Part shown: positions 8,743-27,052 of the stretch, piece by piece
Position numbering within the stretch: the stretch's first letter is position 1
Layout of the letters: every line of letters begins with the position of its first letter
Source: Gemmatimonadota bacterium
GTDB lineage: Bacteria > Gemmatimonadota > Gemmatimonadetes > Gemmatimonadales > Gemmatimonadaceae
Direction: 5' to 3'
Assembly: GCA_028287345.1 (NCBI GenBank)
Contig: JAQBPV010000113.1
Location: 1-36,670, forward strand
DNA length: 36,670 nt
Notes under the pieces: generated by a model
Database searches by the model: none
What the model was told of the DNA's origin: nothing
What the model saw: the letters and a program-made list of their open reading frames with translations, nothing else
Program-made: the position numbers and the translations under genes

Positions 8743-9756
8743 GTGACCAGCTCTCTCAAAGTCAGCCATTCGCGCGACGACAGCCGCGACCTCGAGCTGC
8801 TTGACCAACTGGCGACGGCGCGTGCCGCGCTGAACGAGCAGATCGCCCGCCGGATCATCGGCCAGCGCGAGGTGGTGGACAATCTCGTGGCCGCGATGTT
8901 GTCGGGCGGACATGCGCTTCTCGTCGGCGTACCCGGCCTGGCGAAGACGCTGTTGGTGCAGACGGTCGCCCAGGCACTGGACCTCCAGTTCTCGCGCGTG
9001 CAGTTCACTCCGGACCTGATGCCGAGTGACATCACGGGCACCGAACTGCTGGAGGAAGATCACTCTTCTGGTCGCCGGTTCTTCAAGTTCGTGCACGGAC
9101 CAGTGTTCGCGAACATCGTCCTTGCCGACGAGATCAACCGCGCGCCACCGAAGACGCAGGCCGCGCTGCTGCAGGCGATGCAGGAGCATGCGGTGACGGC
9201 GGCGGGCAAGACGCACAAGCTGCCGGAGCCGTTCTTCGTCCTCGCCACGCAGAACCCCATCGAGCAGGAGGGCACATATCCGCTGCCCGAGGCGCAGCTC
9301 GATCGCTTCATGGTGCAGCTCACCGTCGGCTATCCGTCGCGTGAGGAGGAAGAGCGCATCGTGACGGAGACGACGTCCGACCGCGAGGTCGAGGTGAAGC
9401 CGGTACTCACGGGCGTCCAGCTCAGCGAGCTGCTGCACCTCGTTCGCCGCTTGCCGGCGGCGCCGAGCATCGTGAGTTATGCCGTGAAGCTGGCGCGGAG
9501 CACGCGCCCCGATTCACCCGAGGCGTCGCCGATGGTGAAGAAGTACGTCAGCTGGGGCGCCGGCCCGCGCGCGTCGCAGTACCTCATCCTCGGCGCAAAG
9601 GCGCGGGCGGCGATGGACGGTCGCGCAATGCCGGACCTCGAGGACGTTCAGGCGATGGCGGCGCCAGTACTCGGCCATCGCGTGGTGCTCAACTTTCAGG
9701 CAGAAGCGGAAGGCATCTCGAGCCTGTCGTTGATCGCGTCGCTCGACAAGCGGTAA
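8743..9756 (+). CDS. MoxR family AAA+ ATPase
   Basis: The 337-residue AAA+ ATPase has Walker A GVPGLAKT (residues 62-69), Walker [21 protein letters not shown] (from residue 127) and sensor-1 LATQNP, all in the form typical of the MoxR clade. These ATPases act as chaperones or maturases, usually with a VWA-domain or DUF58 partner. No such partner is adjacent here, so the client is unknown. GTG at 8743 is the only sensible start; it opens a polar N-terminus of about 25 residues before [20 protein letters not shown]. The 3' end overlaps the convergent histidine kinase gene by 61 bases. Confidence 0.93.
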
Positions 9757-11903: not shown

Positions 11904-12872
11904 ATGGCAATCCAGCCTCCCCAGTCGTTGAAGTGGCCCGCTGATCGCGCGCTCCTCTTCGTCCACGGTATCGGCAGCTCCAAGGTCGGCGACTACGACC
12001 CAATCGTCGCGCAGTTGCGCGACATACTCGGCGCCGACTCCGCGAAGTTCGCGATCTACTTCCTCTATTACGACGCCGTCAACGAGTGGTTCGCGCAGAA
12101 ACTGCAGGCACAGCAGGTGTTCACGAAGCTCGTGCAGTTCATCTCGGGGCGTCTCGACGGCAGTGAGCTCGGCAACGCCGCGGCGGCGTTCGCGGGAGAC
12201 GTCGTTTGGCCGGTGCTCATACCCGACGCGCGCCTCGCAATCCGCGCTGCGATGCTACAACAGTTGCAGACCATCGTGCTCGATGGAATCGCCGCCGGTG
12301 TGCAGCCGCGCAATCAGCACATCTCGATCATCGCGCACAGCCTCGGCTGCTTCCATACATACGAGGCGCTGTCGCGCATGGCGACGGCTCCGGCGGAAGG
12401 TCTCGGGCCGGCGTCGGCAGGTGTGGTGCTCGACAACGTCATCTACATGGCGTCTCCTGTGCAGCTCATCCGGTCGAGCGGCCTCGCGCTCGGCAACGCG
12501 CTGCCGCAGCCGTCGTCGATCTTCTCGGTGTCGGACGCGGCGCTCGAGATTCCATCCGAGCCGGGCGACGACGGCGCGCCGGTCCGCTGCGCTCGGCGGA
12601 CTGTCTCGATCACCGGCAATCTCGATCCTGTCGGCGGCTTCGTCTTTCGCGCGAAGCAGCCATGGGGCTACATGAATCTTCCTGACCAGGAGTCGTTCAT
12701 CGACCAGGAGCAGGTCGCGACCGTGAATGGCTCGGAGCGATTCTCGCTCGCGTCGATCCTCGTGGAGGCGCTACAGACGGGAGGTCCGCCCACGATCGCG
12801 CCGGAGAATCCTCACGACTGGAGCGCATACGTCGCACGTCATGCGGCAGACCTGCGCACGTGGCTCACATGA
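11904..12872 (+). CDS. Alpha/beta hydrolase-like protein (putative esterase/lipase)
   Basis: This 322-residue cytoplasmic protein begins with the hydrolase pattern LLFVHGIGSSKVGDYDP (oxyanion-hole HG at residues 21-22). It carries the nucleophile elbow AHSLGC, with Ser146, after the strand HISIIAHSLG. A large insert between them includes FAGDVVWPVLIPDARLAIRA. Likely acid and histidine candidates lie in the C-terminal half (GNLDPVGG and later) but I cannot assign them with confidence. No signal peptide is seen. Its stop overlaps the start of the next gene (ATGA at 12869-12872), which suggests co-translation and a shared task. Substrate unknown. Confidence 0.75.
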   Translation: MAIQPPQSLKWPADRALLFVHGIGSSKVGDYDPIVAQLRDILGADSAKFAIYFLYYDAVNEWFAQKLQAQQVFTKLVQFISGRLDGSELGNAAAAFAGDVVWPVLIPDARLAIRAAMLQQLQTIVLDGIAAGVQPRNQHISIIAHSLGCFHTYEALSRMATAPAEGLGPASAGVVLDNVIYMASPVQLIRSSGLALGNALPQPSSIFSVSDAALEIPSEPGDDGAPVRCARRTVSITGNLDPVGGFVFRAKQPWGYMNLPDQESFIDQEQVATVNGSERFSLASILVEALQTGGPPTIAPENPHDWSAYVARHAADLRTWLT

Positions 12873-13822
12873 CGCGCTCACTCATGCGCGCATATGCAGC
12901 GCTCGCCCTCGCATTCGCGGGCCTAACGCCGGCGCATGCGCAGGCGCCCGAGACACTCGGCGACATCTTCGGCCGGTTGAAGGCAGGTGAGAGCATCGTC
13001 GCATTCTCCACGACGACACCGCTCGTCGCACGGCGGCTCGATGGCCTCGAGCACTATTTCCGTCATGCGGGTGCGATGAACCTGACGCTCGATGAGCTGA
13101 CCGACGTCTATACGCGTCGCCGAGCGGATCTCGAGACCGTGGCACGATGGAATCGCCACGTGCCCCAATTCGAGCCCGGGTTCGTCGATTCGCTCGTCGC
13201 GCTGAACACCGTGGCGCATGGAGGACTGCAGCGCGCGCTGATGGAGAAGCTGAGCAAGGAATCGCTCGATTCGCTGTACAAGCCGATCGACGACTTCGGC
13301 GCACAGGTGCTGGTGAAGGCGCGCGCGGCGAACCAGGACAAGCTGCGTCGCTTCTACATCAAGTACGGCCCCGACTCACCGCGCCTCAATCTCGCGGAGG
13401 TCGGTCTCAACTATCTCGGCCAGCTGTTCATTCCCGGACTGTTGCCGAGCGAGGACGGGATGCCGTCGCCGTACGAGCTGGTGGCGACGTATCGCACCAC
13501 CGACCTGACGGCCGCGAAGTCTGACGCGGGCGAGCTAACGGGTCGCGTCGTGACGACGGCGCAAATTGGGGTACGGATGTACGGCTTCTCGGAGACGTGT
13601 GGCGAGGGAGGCCGCTTCGTGCAGCTGATCGATCCGTGCCATTCGTCGGCGGGGGCTTTCTTCATGGGGCGGAGAGATGCGCCGCTGTCGAAGCTTTGGG
13701 GCTCTGGCCAGCGGGCGGGCCTTTACGTCGCTCGCGGCAAGTATCATGTCGGCTACGTCTTCGGGGCGGAGAAGCGGCTCGTGTTCGGCGTGGACCAACA
13801 GCTGGTGCCATACATCTTTTAG
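12869..13822 (+). CDS. Exported protein of unknown function, coupled to the hydrolase gene
   Basis: This 317-residue protein has a signal peptide (SLMRAYAALALAFAGLTPA, cleavage near AHA/QA). It has no domain I recognise. Visible features are ETLGDIFGRLKAGESIVAFS, a mostly helical middle region with KLRRFYIKYGPDSPRLN, and a beta-rich C-terminal third with TAQIGVRMYGFSETCGEGG and two cysteines (SETCGEGG, IDPCHSS) that could pair. It ends in hydrophobic LVPYIF, resembling the terminal aromatic residue of outer-membrane proteins, although the rest does not look like a barrel. The ATG at 12869 overlaps the previous stop. Confidence 0.72.
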   Translation: MTRSLMRAYAALALAFAGLTPAHAQAPETLGDIFGRLKAGESIVAFSTTTPLVARRLDGLEHYFRHAGAMNLTLDELTDVYTRRRADLETVARWNRHVPQFEPGFVDSLVALNTVAHGGLQRALMEKLSKESLDSLYKPIDDFGAQVLVKARAANQDKLRRFYIKYGPDSPRLNLAEVGLNYLGQLFIPGLLPSEDGMPSPYELVATYRTTDLTAAKSDAGELTGRVVTTAQIGVRMYGFSETCGEGGRFVQLIDPCHSSAGAFFMGRRDAPLSKLWGSGQRAGLYVARGKYHVGYVFGAEKRLVFGVDQQLVPYIF

Positions 13823-13829
13823 CGTTGCG

Positions 13830-13858
13830 ATGACGCCCAAATGACGCCATGCTATAAA
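13830..13858 (+). promoter_or_regulatory. Putative promoter with direct repeats upstream of the STAND regulator
   Basis: A -35-like ATGACG (13830-13835), a 17-base spacer and TATAAA (13853-13858) precede the gene at 13922. The octamer ATGACGCC occurs twice exactly 11 bases apart (13830-13837 and 13841-13848), about one helical turn, so both copies would face the same side of the DNA. This is a plausible activator or autoregulation site; the binding protein is not known. Confidence 0.5.
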
Positions 13859-13921
13859 CATTCGTCTTAGTAGCGCGCGACGCCGCTCGCTGTAAGCGAT
13901 CCCGAGACGGCCCCCACCGTC

Positions 13922-16900
13922 ATGATTCAGGTTCGTGTATCGATCGTCGGCAATAGCGTTATCGAGATCGGGCGCCACCGTGTGACGCCAGGGTCGTCGC
14001 ACGTGTTCGGCCTGCTCCTTCTCTTTACGTTGCGTGAAGGAAAGCCGATCAGCCGGCAGGAGCTTCAGACGCTCCTGGCAGACGCCAAGACTCCTCGACA
14101 CAACCTGCGGCAGCTGTTGTACAAGCTGCGGCAAATGGGACTCCTGTTCGAGGAGCAAGCCGCTGGCTTGACGCTGTCCAATGTGAAGGTCGCAGGTCCA
14201 GTCGACCTGCTTCGTGAGATGGACATTCGGGCCAGAAGTCGCCTGACCTCGACTGAGCTCGAGGTTCTGCCGTCCTATCTCCCGCGGCTGCCGAAGTCGT
14301 TCAGCACCTGGCTCGACGAGGTGAAGGGCGATCTCGAGGGGCAGATTCGGCATCAGCTGCTTTCCGATCTCGAGACATGCCGGATGTCGCATGCGTGGGA
14401 CGACGTTCTTCGCCTGTCGGAGACGCTCACGTCATTCGATGCGATGAACGAGGAGGTCGTGCGCTCGCGTGCCGAAGCGCTCGCGATGACCGGTCACCGG
14501 GAAGCAGCGCTGCAGGTGATCGACACTTTCACGCGCGAGACGTCGCCGAGCACCGATGCGATCGCGCTGCTGCAGTCGGCGCGGGCACGGATTGCGAAGA
14601 CAGCCATCACGCGTCGGGAAGGAACGCTGCGTGCGCGAACCGCGTGTCTCACTTTTCTCGACGCCGAGTGGGCGCAGATCACGTCCGAAGGCGCGCGGGT
14701 CTCGGCCGTCCTTGGCGTCGCGGGATTGGGCAAGACGAGAGTGGCTGAGGAGTTCGCGGCTCGCATTGCGTTTCGTGGTGGGCATGTGTTGCGCTTCAAC
14801 TGCGACGGCCAGGCACGTCAGCAACCGTTGTCACTGTTCTCGCATCTCCTTCCGGCATTGCGCGCGATGCGCGGAAGTCTCGGCGCAGCGCCGGAGTACA
14901 AGGCGGCGCTGGCGCTCGTGCGTCCGGCAAATGATGGCACGGACCCGGCGATTGCCGAAGGATTGTCACTCGAGGCCAGGCGAGCCGATATCCAGTCGGC
15001 GTTGATCGACCTGTTGGAAGCTGTGACGTCGGAGCGGCCGATGCTGCTCATCGTCGACGATGCGCACATGCTCGATGAGGCGTCGCGTGCCGTGCTGCGC
15101 GCGCTTACGACTACGCGCAACGCGGCGCAGCTGCAGGTGCTCGTGTGCGCGCGGCCGTCATCAGGAAATCCATCGCTGCTCGCGCCGGCTCGTCGGACCA
15201 GCATCTTCGAGTTGGCGCCGTTGTCATCGCAGGACAGCCTCGAGCTGCTGCTCGAGCTCGGCGCCGGCTCGGGACCCGATGACAAGCATTTGGCCTGGTG
15301 CCTCACGCAGGCAGCGGGGAATCCGTTCTACCTGCATCAGCTGGCGTCGCATGTGTCGAAGTCGGTGACGGCGCTGCCGTTCGACATCAGCTCGTTGGCT
15401 CTCAGCTCCTATTCGTCGTTGCGGCCGGAGAGTCGCTCGGTCCTGGAGACTTGCCTACTCCTCGGCCGGTTCTCGACGATGACGCGAGTGATGTTCGTCG
15501 CGGGGGTGGACGATCATACGATGCTGTCGGCGTTGCGAGAGCTCGAGGAGCAGGATCTCGTGCACTTTGCGGATGGGCTTTTGAGTGGTCCGCATGCGCT
15601 GTTGCACGATGCGCTGCGAGGGCTGATCCCTTCGTCCGTCAGTGCGCTACTGCATCGGAGGATCGCGGCGCGGCTTGAAGAGGAGTGTGTGGCGGAGCGG
15701 TTCACGCCGGAGTTGGCGTGGGCGTCGGCGCAGAGTTGGTTGGCGGCGGCGGATCCGACAGCCGCGATGGGTCTCCTTCGCCGTTGTGCGGCTCACGCGG
15801 CGGAAGTCGGAGAGCCAGCTGCTGCAGTGGACTTGTTGTCACAGGTACCGCACGCCGCGTTGCCGCCAAAGCTTCTGGCAGAGCTGCTCGATGGCTTGAG
15901 TCGGTATGCGAGTGCCGGTGGGCGCCTGAGCGTCGTGGTGGCGGCACTAGGCGACAGGCTTGCGCTGGCAAACGTGCTCGAAGAGGGAAACGATACGATC
16001 AAGGGCCTACAGTTACGGCTGATTGAAGCGAATCTGCTTGCGGGTGGCCTTCTGGCGCCCGCGATCGACGGACTTCAAACAACTTTGGCTGACTCCGATG
16101 TCGCGCCTTCGATTCGAGCGCGAGCGGCATCGCGCCTGCTCGTTTTGGCTGATTGTGAACTGGATGCCGCGTTGGCAAAACGTGCGCACGCATGGCTTGC
16201 CGAGATCCCGTCCGAGGACGCGGACACCGCCTCACTGATCGCTCGCGCCGAGCTGGTCTATCATACCAGCTTCGGGGACGTCGACTACGCGTATACCCTC
16301 GCCTCGCAATTCATCGAGTGGTGTCCGCAGCCCAGCGCCAACGAGAGCGATAACCGCCTCCGTGACTACGCGGCGTATTCGCTGTATCGAATCGGGTACT
16401 CGGCTGAAGCAGCGTCTATACTCGAGGCTTCGTACAACTTCATGCTCTCGCACCGATTGTATAGTGAAGCGCTGTATCAGGCATCCATGCGAACCGATGT
16501 CGCGATTTGCCAAGGTGACTTCGAAGTTGCTGAGAAGTGGTTCGCGCGTTCGGAGAAGGCTGTTCGCGGTACCGCTCCTCACCAACTGAATCCTAATTCT
16601 GGCTTCTATGCGAACGCAGGCATATTAGCCATGAGACAGGGACGCTACGACGAAGCAGAGAAACACATTCGCCTACCCCAGCAGCATTTTCCGCTGCTGA
16701 CTGGGGCTAGATACCGCGCAGTTGGTCTCGGAATACTTCTGCGCCTGCAACAGCTGCGTTCGGATGAAAACTTGGCCACGGAAGCCGTGGCTGAACTTCG
16801 TGCCTTGTATGCCAAAGGGCGTTCACTGGGCAGCCAGGACTCCAACGTTGAAGCACTCTGGTGCGCCCATGTGTTGGACGGCGAGGACGAGTTGGCCTCC

Positions 16901-17065
16901 CAGCTTCTTTCCGACTACCTCTTCCGCTATCGCCGAGAGAACACACTCCCCGAATGGTCACTTCGCCACACCACGGCGGCCGATGATGTCTGGGTCGAGT
17001 ACTACGCGCGCTTCGCTCGCCAAACACGTTCGCCGGTGGATTTCGGGAAGGGAAAGCAACGATGA
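13922..17065 (+). CDS. Large STAND-type ATPase transcriptional regulator (winged helix, AAA, helical repeats)
   Basis: This is a 1047-residue regulator of the AfsR/MalT-like architecture. Residues 1-100 form a winged-helix-type domain (HNLRQLLYKLRQMGLLFEEQ), and residues 110-240 a BTAD-like helical region. Next is a STAND/AAA ATPase with Walker A GVAGLGKT (residues 265-272) and Walker B MLLIVDDAHMLD (from residue 374), then LVCARPSS and AAGNPFYLHQLASH typical of the class. From about residue 630 there are TPR-like helices ending near residue 1040. Such proteins couple ligand or stress sensing to nucleotide-driven oligomerisation at promoters. Target genes are unknown. The next gene, a degraded paralogue, overlaps its stop (ATGA at 17062-17065). 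A promoter with direct repeats lies upstream. Confidence 0.85.
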   Translation: MIQVRVSIVGNSVIEIGRHRVTPGSSHVFGLLLLFTLREGKPISRQELQTLLADAKTPRHNLRQLLYKLRQMGLLFEEQAAGLTLSNVKVAGPVDLLREMDIRARSRLTSTELEVLPSYLPRLPKSFSTWLDEVKGDLEGQIRHQLLSDLETCRMSHAWDDVLRLSETLTSFDAMNEEVVRSRAEALAMTGHREAALQVIDTFTRETSPSTDAIALLQSARARIAKTAITRREGTLRARTACLTFLDAEWAQITSEGARVSAVLGVAGLGKTRVAEEFAARIAFRGGHVLRFNCDGQARQQPLSLFSHLLPALRAMRGSLGAAPEYKAALALVRPANDGTDPAIAEGLSLEARRADIQSALIDLLEAVTSERPMLLIVDDAHMLDEASRAVLRALTTTRNAAQLQVLVCARPSSGNPSLLAPARRTSIFELAPLSSQDSLELLLELGAGSGPDDKHLAWCLTQAAGNPFYLHQLASHVSKSVTALPFDISSLALSSYSSLRPESRSVLETCLLLGRFSTMTRVMFVAGVDDHTMLSALRELEEQDLVHFADGLLSGPHALLHDALRGLIPSSVSALLHRRIAARLEEECVAERFTPELAWASAQSWLAAADPTAAMGLLRRCAAHAAEVGEPAAAVDLLSQVPHAALPPKLLAELLDGLSRYASAGGRLSVVVAALGDRLALANVLEEGNDTIKGLQLRLIEANLLAGGLLAPAIDGLQTTLADSDVAPSIRARAASRLLVLADCELDAALAKRAHAWLAEIPSEDADTASLIARAELVYHTSFGDVDYAYTLASQFIEWCPQPSANESDNRLRDYAAYSLYRIGYSAEAASILEASYNFMLSHRLYSEALYQASMRTDVAICQGDFEVAEKWFARSEKAVRGTAPHQLNPNSGFYANAGILAMRQGRYDEAEKHIRLPQQHFPLLTGARYRAVGLGILLRLQQLRSDENLATEAVAELRALYAKGRSLGSQDSNVEALWCAHVLDGEDELASQLLSDYLFRYRRENTLPEWSLRHTTAADDVWVEYYARFARQTRSPVDFGKGKQR

Positions 17066-20000
17066 TCACGATACGTCTCGATATCGTCGGCACTTGTGTC
17101 ATAGAGGTTGGTCAGCACCGGATCACGCCGGGCATCATCCCACCTTTTCGGCTTACTGCTCTTCCTTTCGCTGCGCGAGGGAAGGCCAACTAGCCGAAAG
17201 GAGTTGCAGTCGCTGCTCGCCGACAGCGACTCCTCTGCGCCTGCTTCTCACAATCTCCGGCAGCTGCTCTATCGTTTGCGTGGGATGGGACTTCGTTTCC
17301 AGGAGCATCCGACAGGTCTGACGCTTCAGGGCGCTCACATCGTCGGACCCCTGCACCACCTTCGCGGGATGACGCTTCGAGACCGTTGTCATCTGACGTT
17401 CACTGAGCTCGAGGTTCTCCCCGTCTACGCTATGCCGCTTCCGCGGCTATTCCTCTCCTGGCTCGACGAGACGAGAAGCGAGATGTAGGCACAGATACGC
17501 GTTCTCCTCCTTGCGGATCTGGAGGCGGCGCGCGTCGCCCATGCATGGGCGGATGTGGATCATCTCTGCGTGACGCTCATGGCGCTCGATGCGGCGAACG
17601 AAGACGTGATTCGCAGGCGTGCCGAAGCACTTGCGATGACGGGTCGGCGCGAGCAAGCACTGCAGGTGATCGACACCTTCGTTGCAGAGGCCACACTCAG
17701 CGCGAGTTCACTTGCGTTCCTGCACGCGATGCGCAACCGCATTGGGAAATCGGCGGTCACTCGGCGAGAAGGTACGCTCCACGCTCGCGGATCATGCTTG
17801 GCATACCTCGAAGACGAGTGGGAGAGAGTGGGCTCCGAAGGAGCCCGTATGAGTGCTGTCCTTGGCGTCGCTGGCCTCGGCAAGACACGCGTAACGGACG
17901 AGTTTGCGACGCGCATCACGCTTCGCGGTGGGCACGTACTGCGGTTCGAGTGCGACAGCCAGGCGCGGCAGCAGCCGCTTTCGTTGTTCTCGCACATTTT
18001 GCCCGCGTTGCGCGCCATGCGCGGGAGTATTGGTGCGTCGCCAGAACACAGGGGATCGCTCGCGCTAGTGCGACCCGTCAACGACGGTACGGAGCCCCTG
18101 ATCCAGGAAGGTATGTCGCTCGAGGCGAGACGCGCAGACATCCAGTCGGCGCTTGTCGACCTTTTGGAAGCTGTGACCGCGGAGCGGCGGATGCTGATCG
18201 TCGTAGACGATGCTCATTTGCTCGACGACGCGTCACGTGCAGTGCTCCGCGCTCTCACGGCAACGGGCAAGGCAGCTCTCACGCAAGTGCTCGTTTGTGC
18301 CCGGCCGTCATCAAGCAATGCATCACTGCTTGCGCCGGCGAAGCGCTGCAGCGTATTCGAGTTGGCGCCGCTGTCGCGACGGGACAGCCGTGAGCTGCTC
18401 TTGGAGCTTGGTGCAGGATCGGAAGCCAATGAGACGCATGTGGAGTGGTGCCTGGCCCAAGCGGCAGGCAATCCCTTTTACCTGCATCAGTTAGCGACGC
18501 ATACCTCATCATCGGCGCTGCCGTTTGACATCAGCAGCTTAGCGTTAGCCTCATACTCGGCGCTACGGCCCGAGAGCCGGTTAGTACTGGACACGTGTCT
18601 ACTTCTCGGTCGATTCGCGACTATGCAGCGCGCAGTTCTCGTGACTGGTATCGACGACAACACGATGCTGTCTGCCCTGCGAGAGCTTGAGGAACAGGAT
18701 CTCGTGCATTTCGCGGAAGGCCATTTGAGCGGCCCACATGCGTTGTTGCACGATGCATTGCGCCTGTTAATTCCATCGGCTGTCAGCGCGTTGCTCCAGC
18801 GACGAATCGCGACGCGCTTGCAGGAGGAGTGCATTGCGGAGCTATTCACGCCCGAGTTGGCGTGGGCATCTGCGCAGAATTGGTTGGCGGCGGGCGATCC
18901 AACCGCGGCGACGCATTTATTGCGACGGTGTGCCACTCACGCGGCTGAGTTAGGGGAGCCTGCAGTAGCCGTGGACCTGTTGTCCCAGGTTCCCCATTCC
19001 TCGCTGCCGCCGAAACTCCTGGCCGAACTATTGGATGATCTGAGCGAGTTCGCACACGCCGGGGGCATTCGATCGGTAGGTGTAGCAGCGTTGCGCGACA
19101 GACTTGCACTAGCGTGGCAACTCGAAGAAGACCGCGATAGCATCAACTCCATAACTTTGCGCCTAATAGAAGCCGACCTGCTTAATGGAGGTCCAAAGGA
19201 CGCGGCCACTCATGCGCTCATGACGTTGCTACGCGAACCCGCGACGTCAGCCTCTGTTCGTGCAATGGCGGCAGCGAGGCTGTTTGCAATTGCTGACGGT
19301 GACTTGGACTCCGACTTGGCAAACGCAGCATACGCTTTCGTGCGCATCATAGAAGCACCAGATCCACAGTCCGCCTCCCTTCTCGATGGTGCGAAGCTCA
19401 TCTATCACACGGCTTTCGGTGACCTAGATACCGCACATGCTCTTGCGTCGCGGCTCGTAGCGTCTTACCCGGAATCGAGTCGCTCACCGGCCGCCTGCCG
19501 CGCCCGCATGCACGCAGCCTTTGCGTTCCATCGAATCGGACGTAGCGACATCGCCGAGTCAACTCTCGAACCCGACTTCGCGCTGTTGATGTCGTGTCGG
19601 ATGTACGGCATGGCACTCTACGCCGCATCGGTGCTCACAGGGGCGGCAATCGCCGCTGGTGATTTTGATACCGCAGAACGTTGGTTCATCAATTCTCAGC
19701 ATGCTTTGCGCGGCGACGCGCCACACCGACTCAATCCTAACGCGGGCTTCAGTTCCAATGCGGGTACCTTAGCGATGCGACAGGGTCGCTACGATGAGGC
19801 CAAGGAGTGTATTTTCTAGCCCCCCTTAGGCACTACACAATACTCGAAGGAGCCCGCTACCGAGGCATCATGCTTTCGCACATCCTTCGCATTCAGCAAC
19901 TCAGTTCGGGCACCAATATGAGTCGAGATGAGGTTGTTGCACTTCGTGGGCTGTACGACAAAGGGAAGCACCTTGGTGGCCAAGATACCTTGGTCGAAGC

Positions 20001-20188
20001 ACTCTGGTGTGCGCACGTTTTGGAGGGCGATACAACCGGAGCAAATCTCCTGCTACGCGATTTCCTAGCGCACAGGCGAGAGCGGTCGATCCCCGAGTTG
20101 GTCACTTCGGCATGCCAGCGCGGCTGATGACGCATGGGTGGAGTACTACGCGCGGGTTGGGCCAAAAAATAGAATTGCTGATGCTTGA
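17062..20188 (+). pseudogene. Degraded tandem paralogue of the STAND regulator
   Basis: This copy aligns with the preceding gene from its first residues to the last but is broken in four places. After 24 codons (MITIRLDIVGTCVIEVGQHR...) one extra base near 17134 shifts the frame. An in-frame TAG at 17486-17488 replaces a codon in the region equivalent to LEGQIRHQLL. A frame change occurs near 19805-19815 after RQGRYDEAKE. One extra base near 20098 shifts the frame again, after which the expected tail WVEYYARV resumes and ends at a TGA (20186-20188). The central 17555-19819 section stays open for 754 codons with intact Walker motifs (GVAGLGKT, MLIVVDDAH). TTA codons are far more common than in copy 1. 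Gene decay is the simplest reading; sequencing error would have to explain all four lesions. Confidence 0.88.
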
Positions 20189-20632: not shown

Positions 20633-22018
20633 TTAGCGCTCGCCACTGGCTGCACGTAGAAGCGATAAGCCTCTCGATTGCGAACTCCGATGAGCCGGTG
20701 TGAAAATCTGTCTCCACTCAGTACTTGCCAGCAAGGTGTCGACGATCGAAGGATCGAACTGCTCGCCACGGAGCTTCAGTAGTTCCGCTTTCACATCGGC
20801 TTCGGTCAGCGCACCGCGATACGGTCGGACAGTGGTCATTGCGTCGATCGTGTCGGCCACCATGATCACGCGTGAAGCAAGGGGAATTGAATCTCCGGAA
20901 ATACCGTCCGGATATCCGGCCCCGCCCCAGCGCTCGTGGTGATGTCGAATGGCCGGCACGAACTCGGTAAGCCGCGTCATCGTTGCGACCAACTCGGCGC
21001 CGTCGGCAGGATGCTCCTTCATGATGGCCCACTCTTCGAGATTGAGCTTCTCGGTCTTCCGAAGAATTGGTCCATACTTCTCGTGAATCTTGCCAACATC
21101 GTGCAGCAGAGCCGCCGTTCCGATTTTCTCGATTTCACGCTCGCTCAGTCGTAAGGCTCGAGCAATAATCGTCGCGTATTGACTCACGCGTCGCGAATGG
21201 CCAGATGTATAGGGATCACGCGCTTCGATCGACTTAATCATCAACTCTAGCAACTCGCGATTAGTCTGCGCGAGATCTACAGTAGTCTTGGCCCAGTGCC
21301 GAAAGCCAACGAGCGGGACCCAGAGCAACGCAGCGGCAATGGGGCCAAAATTCGTATAGCAGTAGGCAAATCCAAACGTTACAGGCGCTGCGATCAAATC
21401 GAGACCAAGGCTAGGTCCATGATTCTCACGCCACACGTCGGTGATCCGACGCCCACTCGAGAGCGCAATGACGACTGACGTCAAGGAATAGTTGAGCACC
21501 ACTGACAAGGCATATGCGCAAAGTGCCGCCAGCCCACATGCCCTCGTTAGTTCCGCAATGCCATTCGGCGCCTCAAGAAACGAAATGCCGCCCGCAAACC
21601 GATAGGCAAGAATCGTTACCGAAAAGACAAGCACGAACTGCGCGACGTTGAAGACTGTCTTGGTCGCGCTTATTCGTGCTCTGACACAGTCCGCAGCCTT
21701 CAGCATGCCGATTGCCGCGACCGTCGTCCAATGAGGCACGACTAGCGTCATCGCCATGTAGGGTATGAACGCGATTGAAGTGGTTGCTGATGATGGCAGC
21801 AGAAAGGCCCATGCCTCACCAATGATCGCAAGAAGGGTGAGAAGAGTGAGCGCCGTCCAAGCTCCGTCCGGAAGCACGCTGTACGTTGTCACGAGCAAGC
21901 TCGCGCCAACGACGGCTGCCACCGACGTCAAAGTCACAAAGAGGCGTACATTTTGCTCTTGTCTTTTTCCCAAAGCTCCACTCCGTTTCCGTCGCGCGCG
22001 ACCAGATACACGTCGCAT
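20633..22018 (-). CDS. HD-GYP domain membrane protein, putative cyclic-di-GMP phosphodiesterase
   Basis: This is a 461-residue protein. Residues about 25-240 hold several membrane helices of no named family. The C-terminal part is an HD-GYP domain: SIEARDPYTSGHSRRVSQYA (residues 263-282), AALLHDVGKIHEKYGPIL (metal-binding His306-Asp307), HPADGAELV, and HHHERWGGAGYPDGI with the GYP at 368-370. All the metal-ligand positions that I can recognise are kept, so hydrolysis of cyclic di-GMP is likely, driven or modulated by the membrane part. The ATG at 22018 has only a weak ribosome binding site. The gene is monocistronic between two gene-poor stretches, and its codon use is more AT-rich than the core genes. 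Confidence 0.9.
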   Translation of the reverse strand: MRRVSGRARRKRSGALGKRQEQNVRLFVTLTSVAAVVGASLLVTTYSVLPDGAWTALTLLTLLAIIGEAWAFLLPSSATTSIAFIPYMAMTLVVPHWTTVAAIGMLKAADCVRARISATKTVFNVAQFVLVFSVTILAYRFAGGISFLEAPNGIAELTRACGLAALCAYALSVVLNYSLTSVVIALSSGRRITDVWRENHGPSLGLDLIAAPVTFGFAYCYTNFGPIAAALLWVPLVGFRHWAKTTVDLAQTNRELLELMIKSIEARDPYTSGHSRRVSQYATIIARALRLSEREIEKIGTAALLHDVGKIHEKYGPILRKTEKLNLEEWAIMKEHPADGAELVATMTRLTEFVPAIRHHHERWGGAGYPDGISGDSIPLASRVIMVADTIDAMTTVRPYRGALTEADVKAELLKLRGEQFDPSIVDTLLASTEWRQIFTPAHRSSQSRGLSLLRAASGER

Positions 22019-25442: not shown

Positions 25443-26552
25443 TTACAGGTGCGAGGCGTTCTTGTAGAACGGCGGCTTCGTCACCGTGGCGGGAACGCGA
25501 TTGCCGCGGATCTCGATCTCGAACGTCGTGCCTTCCTTCGCGCCCTCGGCGGGCAGGTATGCGGTGCCGATGGGAATGCCGAGTGTGGGGCTCATCGTGC
25601 CGCTGCAGACGATGCCACTCGGCGCGCCATTGTAGAAAACGGGATAGCCGTGCCGAGGAAAGTTGCGATCCTGCATCGTGAAGCCGACGAGCTTTCGAGG
25701 CACGCCCTGCTCTTTCTGCTTCACGAGCGCATCGCGTCCGACGAACTCACCCTTCGGCAGCTTCACCAGCCATGCGAGATTCGCCTCGAGTGGCGTCGTG
25801 GTGTCATCGATGTCGTTGCCGTAGAGCGCCATGCCCATCTCGAGGCGCAGCGAATCACGCGCGCCGAGTCCCGCGGGGACGATCTTCCCGGTGGCCATGA
25901 GGGCCTTCCAGATCGGCACAGCCGATTCATTGGCGATGTACAACTCGAAGCCGTCTTCGCCAGTGTAGCCAGTGCGCGAGATGATCGCCTTTTCTCCAGC
26001 GACCTCGCCCTCGGCGAAGTGGTAGTACTTGATCACCGACAAATCGGTGTCGGTGAGCGCCTGGAGGATGCCGGCAGTCTTCGGCCCCTGCACCGCGAGC
26101 AGTGTCATCTCGTCGGTGGCGTCATGGATGTCGACGCCGAACTCCGCGGCGTGACGCACGATGTGCGCATAGTCCTTGGGCGCATTGCTGGCATTCACCA
26201 CCATCATGACCTTGTTCGGAAATCGATAGACGAGGCAGTCGTCCTCGATCGTTCCGCGATCGTTCAGGATGGTGGAGTAGTGCGCCTGCCCCACGGCCAG
26301 CGCCGCGACGTTGTTCGTCGTCACATGGTTGACGAAGTCGATCGCCTTGTCGCCGTTGATCCAGAACTCACCCATGTGCGACACGTCGAACACACCAGCT
26401 CCTTCGCGCACTGCCTTGTGCTCGGCGACGATACCACTCGGATACTGCACGGGCATCTCGTAGCCGGCGAACGGGACGATCTTGGCGCCGAGTGCGACGT
26501 GAATTTCGTGGAGGGGAGTGCGCTTGAGCGGTGCGGATGGAGCGTCGGCCAT
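25443..26552 (-). CDS. gcvT: Aminomethyltransferase (glycine cleavage T protein)
   Basis: This 369-residue T protein transfers the methylene group from the lipoyl-bound aminomethyl intermediate to tetrahydrofolate and releases ammonia. Key blocks are LHEIHVALGAKIVPFAGYEM, GVFDVSHMGEFWINGD, DDCLVYRF, ARDSLRLEMGMALYGND and GIVCSGTMSPTLGIPIGTAY. The chosen ATG at 26552 is followed by a short polar N-terminus (MADAPSAPLK). The frame is open 149 codons upstream only because of high GC. No gcvH, gcvP or glycine riboswitch is seen beside it, so the rest of the system must be elsewhere. It is the first gene of an operon with mogA and the NtrC-like activator. Confidence 0.95.
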   Translation of the reverse strand: MADAPSAPLKRTPLHEIHVALGAKIVPFAGYEMPVQYPSGIVAEHKAVREGAGVFDVSHMGEFWINGDKAIDFVNHVTTNNVAALAVGQAHYSTILNDRGTIEDDCLVYRFPNKVMMVVNASNAPKDYAHIVRHAAEFGVDIHDATDEMTLLAVQGPKTAGILQALTDTDLSVIKYYHFAEGEVAGEKAIISRTGYTGEDGFELYIANESAVPIWKALMATGKIVPAGLGARDSLRLEMGMALYGNDIDDTTTPLEANLAWLVKLPKGEFVGRDALVKQKEQGVPRKLVGFTMQDRNFPRHGYPVFYNGAPSGIVCSGTMSPTLGIPIGTAYLPAEGAKEGTTFEIEIRGNRVPATVTKPPFYKNASHL

Positions 26553-26685
26553 GTCATTGGGCTGGTTCGGGAGAAGGGGAAGAATAATGCGGGGATGGCA
26601 TCCCGGTGTGCCAGTGTGACAGGACGGCGACTGCGGGCACGGGCGTTGCTCAGCGTGACGTCGCTCACACCGGGATTGGTATTTC

Positions 26686-26994
26686 GTGCAACTCAGCAAG
26701 CGACAGCAGTGGGGACTCTTCGCCGCGGCGGCGAGCGCGGTTGCAGCCCCGCTCGCCGAACGAGCGGTCGTGGCTGGATGGCGGCGGATCTCGGGGGAAG
26801 ATCCGCCAGACGACCCGGCAGGTCCGGACGTGGCGTGGGGCCGAGCGATTGCGTGGACGGCAACGGCCGCGGTGATCGTGGCGGTTGCCCAAGTGGTGGC
26901 GCGGCGAGGTGCCGCGATCGCCTGGGAGCGGGCGACGGGTGAGCGTCCGCCGCGCGGGAACCGCAAGAGAACGCGAAAGCGCTCGAGGAACTGA
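26686..26994 (+). CDS. DUF4235 small membrane protein
   Basis: The 102-residue protein begins MQLSKRQQWGLFAAAASAVA at a GTG start. A first hydrophobic segment (about residues 9-22) is followed by a polar Pro/Asp-rich stretch (SGEDPPDDPAGPDVAWGRA), a second membrane helix (AWTATAAVIVAVAQVVA) and a strongly basic tail (RKRTRKRSRN). Layout and the 'GW-R-SG-DPP' pattern fit DUF4235. The function is unknown. It is divergent from gcvT and 133 bases away. Confidence 0.7.
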   Translation: MQLSKRQQWGLFAAAASAVAAPLAERAVVAGWRRISGEDPPDDPAGPDVAWGRAIAWTATAAVIVAVAQVVARRGAAIAWERATGERPPRGNRKRTRKRSRN

Positions 26995-27052
26995 CCCAAA
27001 AGTCAGATAGGCGGCCTCTTGCGTGAGCGGAGGCGTGGAGGCAGGCTGGCGC

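Follow-up and report, generated by a model that had tools for sequence, protein, structure and literature searches.

The window analysed here, 36,670 nucleotides in length, is the whole of one contig (C405) of a 6.08-Mb draft genome that comprises 543 contigs and is an estimated 91.8% complete. Two homologous regulator genes lie head to tail in this window, behind a putative promoter region and between two neighbours that mark a syntenic locus (Table 1). The first gene, copy 1, is a single open frame of 1047 codons at 13922–17065, and the ATG of the second, copy 2, at 17062 overlaps the TGA of copy 1 (17063–17065) as ATGA. The two could be aligned over their whole length, with 64% protein identity over 1029 aligned codons and an E-value of about 0 in the genome search. 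The original prediction, in which the two genes were tandem homologues once translated together and the first of them was intact, therefore holds for both of these points.

Table 1. Features of the regulator locus in the window, with strand and basis of assignment.
Feature	Position	Strand	Basis or remark
MoxR-type AAA_3 ATPase, conserved upstream neighbour	8743–9756	+	marks syntenic locus
Putative SARP-type operator, two perfect ATGACGCC half-sites, period 11 bp	13830–13848	+	half-sites at 13830–13837 and 13841–13848
-10-like region	13853–13861	+	TATAAA 13853–13858; AAACAT 13856–13861, the latter at family-conserved distance
Copy 1, intact, predicted large SARP-type STAND transcription regulator, 1047 aa	13922–17065	+	one open frame
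Predicted SARP domain of copy 1 (OmpR-type winged helix plus BTAD), residues 1–238	13922–14635	+	model and PDB fold matches
AAA_16 NTPase (STAND) core of copy 1	14633–15142	+	Pfam AAA_16, residues 238–407, E 1.3e-13
Predicted C-terminal TPR-like superhelix of copy 1, approx. residues 570–1036	15630–17030	+	model helices, PDB matches
Copy 2, broken paralogue (pseudogene)	17062–20188	+	ATGA overlap with copy 1; lacks an operator
Lesion 1, one extra base, about 17134 (codon 25), exact base ambiguous	17131–17137	+	frame-aware alignment
Lesion 2, in-frame TAG, at copy 1 codon 139 (Glu)	17486–17488	+	sequence, frame-aware alignment
Stretch of copy 2 free of lesions, 776 codons in its own frame	17489–19816	+	between lesions 2 and 3
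Lesion 3, frame change (+2 or -1), about 19808, beside T4 and C6 runs	19806–19830	+	frame-aware alignment
Lesion 4, one extra base, about 20098	20096–20102	+	frame-aware alignment
HD_5-domain protein (HD-GYP-like), conserved convergent neighbour	20633–22018	-	marks syntenic locus

Copy 1 is predicted to have the architecture of a large SARP of the AfsR type, for which the domain order of OmpR-type winged helix, BTAD, NTPase and TPR has been described (PMC10936776, PMC10972967). The chain of about 1000 residues would carry an N-terminal winged helix plus BTAD, with the recognition helix at residues 58–71, a central P-loop NTPase with Walker A (GVAGLGKT, residues 265–272) and Walker B (IVDD) motifs, and C-terminal TPRs as the repeat sensor domain expected of a STAND protein. 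The NTPase was the only domain of copy 1 above curated Pfam cut-offs. Pfam profiles found AAA_16 in 15 of 15 homologues, together with weak matches to BTAD in four, to Trans_reg_C in five, to TPR in some and to NB-ARC in two relatives, so that the winged-helix and BTAD assignment is a tentative one, drawn from these weak hits and from the fold match. For the latter, AlphaFold models were built from the alignments of the window and of related loci. Residues 1–238 were modelled with a pLDDT of 93.3, and in Foldseek their sole PDB matches below E 0.001 were the SARP proteins AfsR (8k60/8hvr) and EmbR (2ff4/2fez), spanning E 3.6e-6 to 5.9e-4, with AfsR 8k60 at E 3.6e-6 and a TM score of 0.66. The whole chain was modelled with a mean pLDDT of 85.7 and a pTM of 0.54, which leaves the relative placement of the domains unsure; its best PDB match was the STAND-TPR protein 6mfv, followed by MalT (8bob), with plant NLRs among the first ten, and the superhelix likewise matched 6mfv and TPR proteins. 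The label of STAND regulator in the original prediction was thus right, and it could be sharpened to large SARP by the fold matches and the domain order.

Searches with other collections added little. Searching PDB sequences with the regulator gave nothing useful, NCBIfam returned just a weak, sub-threshold TOMM kinase/cyclase match through the NTPase, and a contig search with the window regulator recovered two distant Frankia-type loci only, again through the NTPase. An identity as an anti-phage STAND (Avs-like) defence protein was also considered and was dropped, since PADLOC gave no match to a known defence protein.

Frame-aware alignment of the copy 1 protein with the DNA of copy 2 revealed exactly four breaks, after each of which the homology resumes, so that the full copy 2 protein cannot be made. 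All four lesions had been anticipated, with the frame change near 19810 placed within two bases of the position found here. Between the second and the third lesion, the unbroken stretch spans the end of the BTAD, the NTPase with intact Walker A and B motifs, and most of the TPRs, and the recognition helix of copy 2 is nearly identical to that of copy 1.

The duplication is old, because identity between the copies at codon positions 1, 2 and 3 is 70, 80 and 44%, and identity at fourfold-degenerate sites is 0.387 against 0.283 expected at saturation, both of which place the synonymous sites near saturation. In a codon model with both copies and three same-genus outgroups, omega was 0.065 for the branch of copy 1 and 0.125 for that of copy 2, a difference that was not significant (2dlnL 1.6), and omega = 1 on the copy 2 branch was rejected (2dlnL 20). 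Neutral branch lengths were about 1.7 (copy 1) and 1.3 (copy 2) changes per site; with near-saturated synonymous sites, these ages and omegas are rough. An amino-acid relative-rate test counted 41 changes for copy 1 against 52 for copy 2 (p 0.25). Since 3.1% of random point changes create a stop codon, the single stop in copy 2 limits the neutral changes since its loss to 0.05 per site (95%), no more than a few percent of the age of the pair. Given one stop only and an omega of about 0.1 on the copy 2 branch, with omega = 1 rejected, purifying selection maintained both copies over most of their history, and the inactivation of copy 2 is recent; a significant rise of omega would not be expected after so recent a loss. 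The comparison of dN/dS that had been proposed for the two copies thus set copy 2 apart from neutral evolution and did not separate it from copy 1. The reading as duplication followed by loss stands in so far as the copies are sisters and copy 2 is broken, and it gives way to a long-maintained pair with a late loss where simple decay had been supposed. Gene conversion is not claimed, as the fourfold identity of 0.43 at residues 300–640, against 0.33–0.40 elsewhere, meets a saturation expectation that is higher there too. Regional rate differences (the N-terminus faster in copy 1 and the C-terminus in copy 2, p about 0.03–0.05) fail multiple testing.

The regulator gene lies upstream of, and convergent with, the HD_5 gene, often with the MoxR-type ATPase gene upstream and a sigma-54 activator beyond. 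This synteny recurs in the same-genus genome G004 and partly in G001 and G002, where the regulator is 38–42% identical, and also in many genomes of the family, in which BLAST alignments give 24–28% identity. Matches to the regulator at E <= 1e-60 were found in 123 of 179 genomes of the family, and at the locus it is usually single-copy in the relatives examined, so that the loss of copy 2 would restore the common state. Among the matches listed there were three tandem pairs, namely that of the window, one at another locus (L046, G136:C30; 61% identical) and one at the same syntenic locus (L047, G101:C59; 57% identical). A search for the pair in related genomes had been suggested, and it yielded these two other pairs with open second members, the usual state at the locus being a single copy. 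Because the members of each pair form sisters in the tree (support 100/100 for the window, 100/99 and 100/100 for the other two), the three pairs arose independently, and the window duplication is lineage-specific. Branch lengths within the pairs are 0.22/0.31 for copy 1 and copy 2 and 0.25/0.37 and 0.40/0.31 for the other two, so that the pace of copy 2 relative to its partner stays within what intact pairs show. Stops that seemed to interrupt other members of the family were set aside, as the eight that were checked were open frames with a stop at their natural end or were cut by the end of a contig.

Since both other tandem pairs are intact and copy 2 bears neither measurable relaxed selection nor a signature of long decay, sequencing or assembly errors, or a mixture of strains, might be suspected of having produced the lesions in what would be an intact second regulator. 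The draft state of the assembly, with its many contigs and an estimated contamination of 5.6%, and the T4 and C6 runs beside lesion 3 would agree with such errors. Nevertheless, four independent lesions, one of them a TAG substitution, fall within one gene of 3.1 kb, and three of the four lie outside homopolymers. Furthermore, a tblastn check of the other window genes with proteins of at least 150 aa from the loci of relatives revealed no clear frame break, the five rows with multiple frames reading as neighbouring genes spanned by spurious ORFs, and the lesions therefore do not reflect a general error rate of the contig. We regard an origin of the lesions in error or strain mixture as unlikely. 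It is very unlikely, in our judgement, that copy 2 is still used through its unbroken stretch, translated from GTG 17555 or ATG 17579 into an NTPase-TPR modulator of copy 1 that would lack the DNA-binding domain. All lesions are indeed confined to the outer quarter, an unbroken gap of this size having a chance of 0.022, and both Walker motifs are intact; however, this chance was calculated post hoc and is not enough to claim use of the fragment, and an unbroken middle is not very improbable after so recent a loss. No clear ribosome-binding site was seen just before either start codon, omega in the middle is indistinguishable from that elsewhere, and the C-terminal TPRs would be cut off at 19819. 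A recently inactivated second copy therefore continues to be our reading of the gene.

A direct repeat laid out as ATGACGCC-CAA-ATGACGCC, with the word TGACG in both half-sites and a period of exactly 11 bp, lies in front of copy 1. The binding sites of SARPs are direct repeats with a spacing of 11 or 22 bp, in which the upstream repeat overlaps the -35 and about 8 bp separate the 3' repeat from the -10 element (PMC10936776); the stretch at 13830–13861 has this geometry in its repeat spacing, -35 overlap and -10 distance, which makes it a candidate large SARP operator. A scan for sigma-70 promoters gave nothing; under its rule a -10 element must have T as its sixth base, and TATAAA was hence passed over. 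With up to 3 mismatches allowed, no second match to the operator was found in the window, and none in front of copy 2.

The spacing of the repeat is conserved across the family. In a first test of 25 homologous genes, repeats matching at least 7 of 8 positions occurred at spacing 11 in 16, against 0–6 at other spacings of 8–39. Upstream of 82 genes, such repeats numbered 43 at spacing 11 against 5–15 for any other spacing between 8 and 33, and perfect repeats 18 against 0–4, while the control stretches inside these 82 genes gave six and none, respectively, at spacing 11. A TGACG pair at spacing 11 precedes 52 of the 82 homologues (no other spacing between 5 and 59 had more than three) and is found in 17 of 22 genera, among them the window genus, where each of the four members that carry the gene has it; the word was picked after viewing the genes, and the spacing test is independent of it. 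The other 30 homologues had no TGACG pair in the searched stretch, some of them belonging to a clade with GTGAGC half-sites and some possibly having a misplaced start. When the upstream regions were aligned on the TGACG pair, an A at +26 (30 of 52, p 2e-9) and a T at +30 (37 of 52, p 2e-17) stood out, with positions counted from the T that opens the first TGACG. Given this fixed distance to a -10-like element, the upstream half-site would coincide with the -35, an arrangement shared with the afsS promoter.

Autoregulation is the simplest reading of a site that accompanies its gene in this way, and the conserved site in front of most homologues suggests that the regulator is most likely an activator of its own gene. 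The recognition helix also bears on this point. Homologues with an LRQ/LRE-type helix have TGACG pairs in 49 of 70 cases and GTGAGC-type pairs in one of 70, whereas those with an LRW-type helix, a paralogue clade of genus g14, have TGACG pairs in none of six and GTGAGC/GTTAGC pairs, likewise 11 bp apart, in four of six. This shift of the half-site with the helix fits a regulator that would recognise its own promoter, with the one clade counting as one event. The upstream regions with GTGAGC/GTTAGC half-sites are those of L041 (G022:C50), L036, L042 and L046, and the G022c upstream region contains TCGTGAGCGCG/A four times in succession. Copy 2, with none of these sites and no visible promoter of its own in front of it and with its nearly identical recognition helix, was probably driven by the same operator as copy 1. 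The pair of G136 has an operator before the first gene only, and that of G101 has a TGACG pair before the second gene in the stretch examined.

The operator could also belong to another SARP, with the regulator gene as a target that is not autoregulated, which would be compatible with the loss of copy 2 and which we hold to be possible but rather improbable. A first look at the genome listed 87 SARP/STAND candidates, and 33 TGACG-N6-TGACG sites were counted in it against 13 for a reversed control, so that there could be other regulators and other sites. Against another SARP speak the company that the site keeps with this gene from genus to genus and the change of the half-site together with the recognition helix, albeit in a single clade. 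The operator-like sites of the genome were listed, and some are intergenic and near gene starts, yet they form no coherent target set. The intergenic ones include L060/L153 (G000:C444:2882–2900), L136 (C164), L145 (C294) and L156 (C523); the C444 site differs from the window operator by one specified base, and the C523 site precedes a PDDEXK_3 (GxxExxY-type) gene. The gene itself is the only target that has support, and that the survivor had become the sole regulator of its target, as originally suggested, is a conjecture in a genome with so many candidates of this broad type.

Taken together, we consider it probable that the locus holds a large SARP-type activator with a putative autoregulatory operator, which was duplicated in tandem, long kept as a pair, and recently lost its second copy. 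In the lineage of the window, the gene was duplicated into one translationally coupled operon, of which both copies were kept by purifying selection for most of its existence until copy 2 was inactivated; the ages and the selection, like the architecture, the lesions, the synteny and the operator, were obtained by computation. By analogy with AfsR, two SARP domains of copy 1 may occupy the two adjacent half-sites, one domain on each, which overlap the -35, and recruit RNA polymerase, while the NTPase and TPR domains may hold this activity in check until ATP, probably together with a signal, releases it. Activation through the site before its own gene would most likely make the regulator an activator of its own transcription, and copy 2, as homodimers or in mixed dimers, probably used the operator of copy 1 until it was lost. 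It might even be speculated that co-translated SARP pairs act as mixed dimers on one operator, which would be why pairs persist, and that the central part of copy 2, devoid of the DNA-binding domain, is still produced and modulates copy 1, a combination that we consider extremely unlikely.

AfsR of Streptomyces coelicolor, a large SARP (PMC10936776), has the same order of OmpR-type DNA-binding domain, BTAD, NTPase/NOD and TPR and about the same length as copy 1, with matching N-terminal folds (8k60/8hvr) at about 18% identity in the matched fold, and the predicted promoter geometry is similar, with two 11-bp repeats overlapping the -35 and the -10 at the expected distance. The half-site differs, being (A)TGACGC here and CGTT(T/C)ATCGNN for AfsR (PMC10972967), and so does the setting, as the window regulator lies beside MoxR and HD-domain genes with the operator before its own gene, whereas AfsR lies beside afsS. 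MalT and other STAND activators likewise have a STAND NTPase followed by a helical superhelix, MalT being the second-best PDB match, and its ATP-dependent switch may serve as a model for the window regulator; the DNA-binding domain of MalT, however, is of LuxR type and C-terminal, whereas that of the window regulator is predicted to be of OmpR/SARP type and N-terminal. EmbR of Mycobacterium tuberculosis shares the SARP domain fold (2fez, 2ff4) but has an FHA domain at its end and lacks the NTPase and TPR parts. As in other bacterial tandem-duplicate pseudogenes, an adjacent paralogue has been broken by a few frameshifts and a stop, but the window pair is, unlike these in general, old and was maintained long before the loss.

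The broken copy is ordinary by itself, and it is the family-conserved operator that deserves further attention. Being readable from the sequence, and with a half-site that shifts with the recognition helix in one paralogue clade, it could provide a handle on the autoregulation and DNA specificity of large SARPs. Furthermore, three independent and long-lived tandem pairs pose the question of why two similar regulators should be kept side by side.

Some further observations concern the neighbourhood. In most of the genomes examined from the family, the HD_5 gene and the regulator converge, and a functional link between the two is possible. Directly before the regulator, at 11904–13822, there are two ORFs, one of them hydrolase-like, which were not found at this position in G001, G004 and G002. 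A GcvT-like ORF at 25443–26999 begins with TTG and encodes 518 aa, of which the aminomethyltransferase domain begins at residue 163; since the ORFs of several relatives are 370–450 aa long, its true start may be downstream or its N-terminus may be extended.
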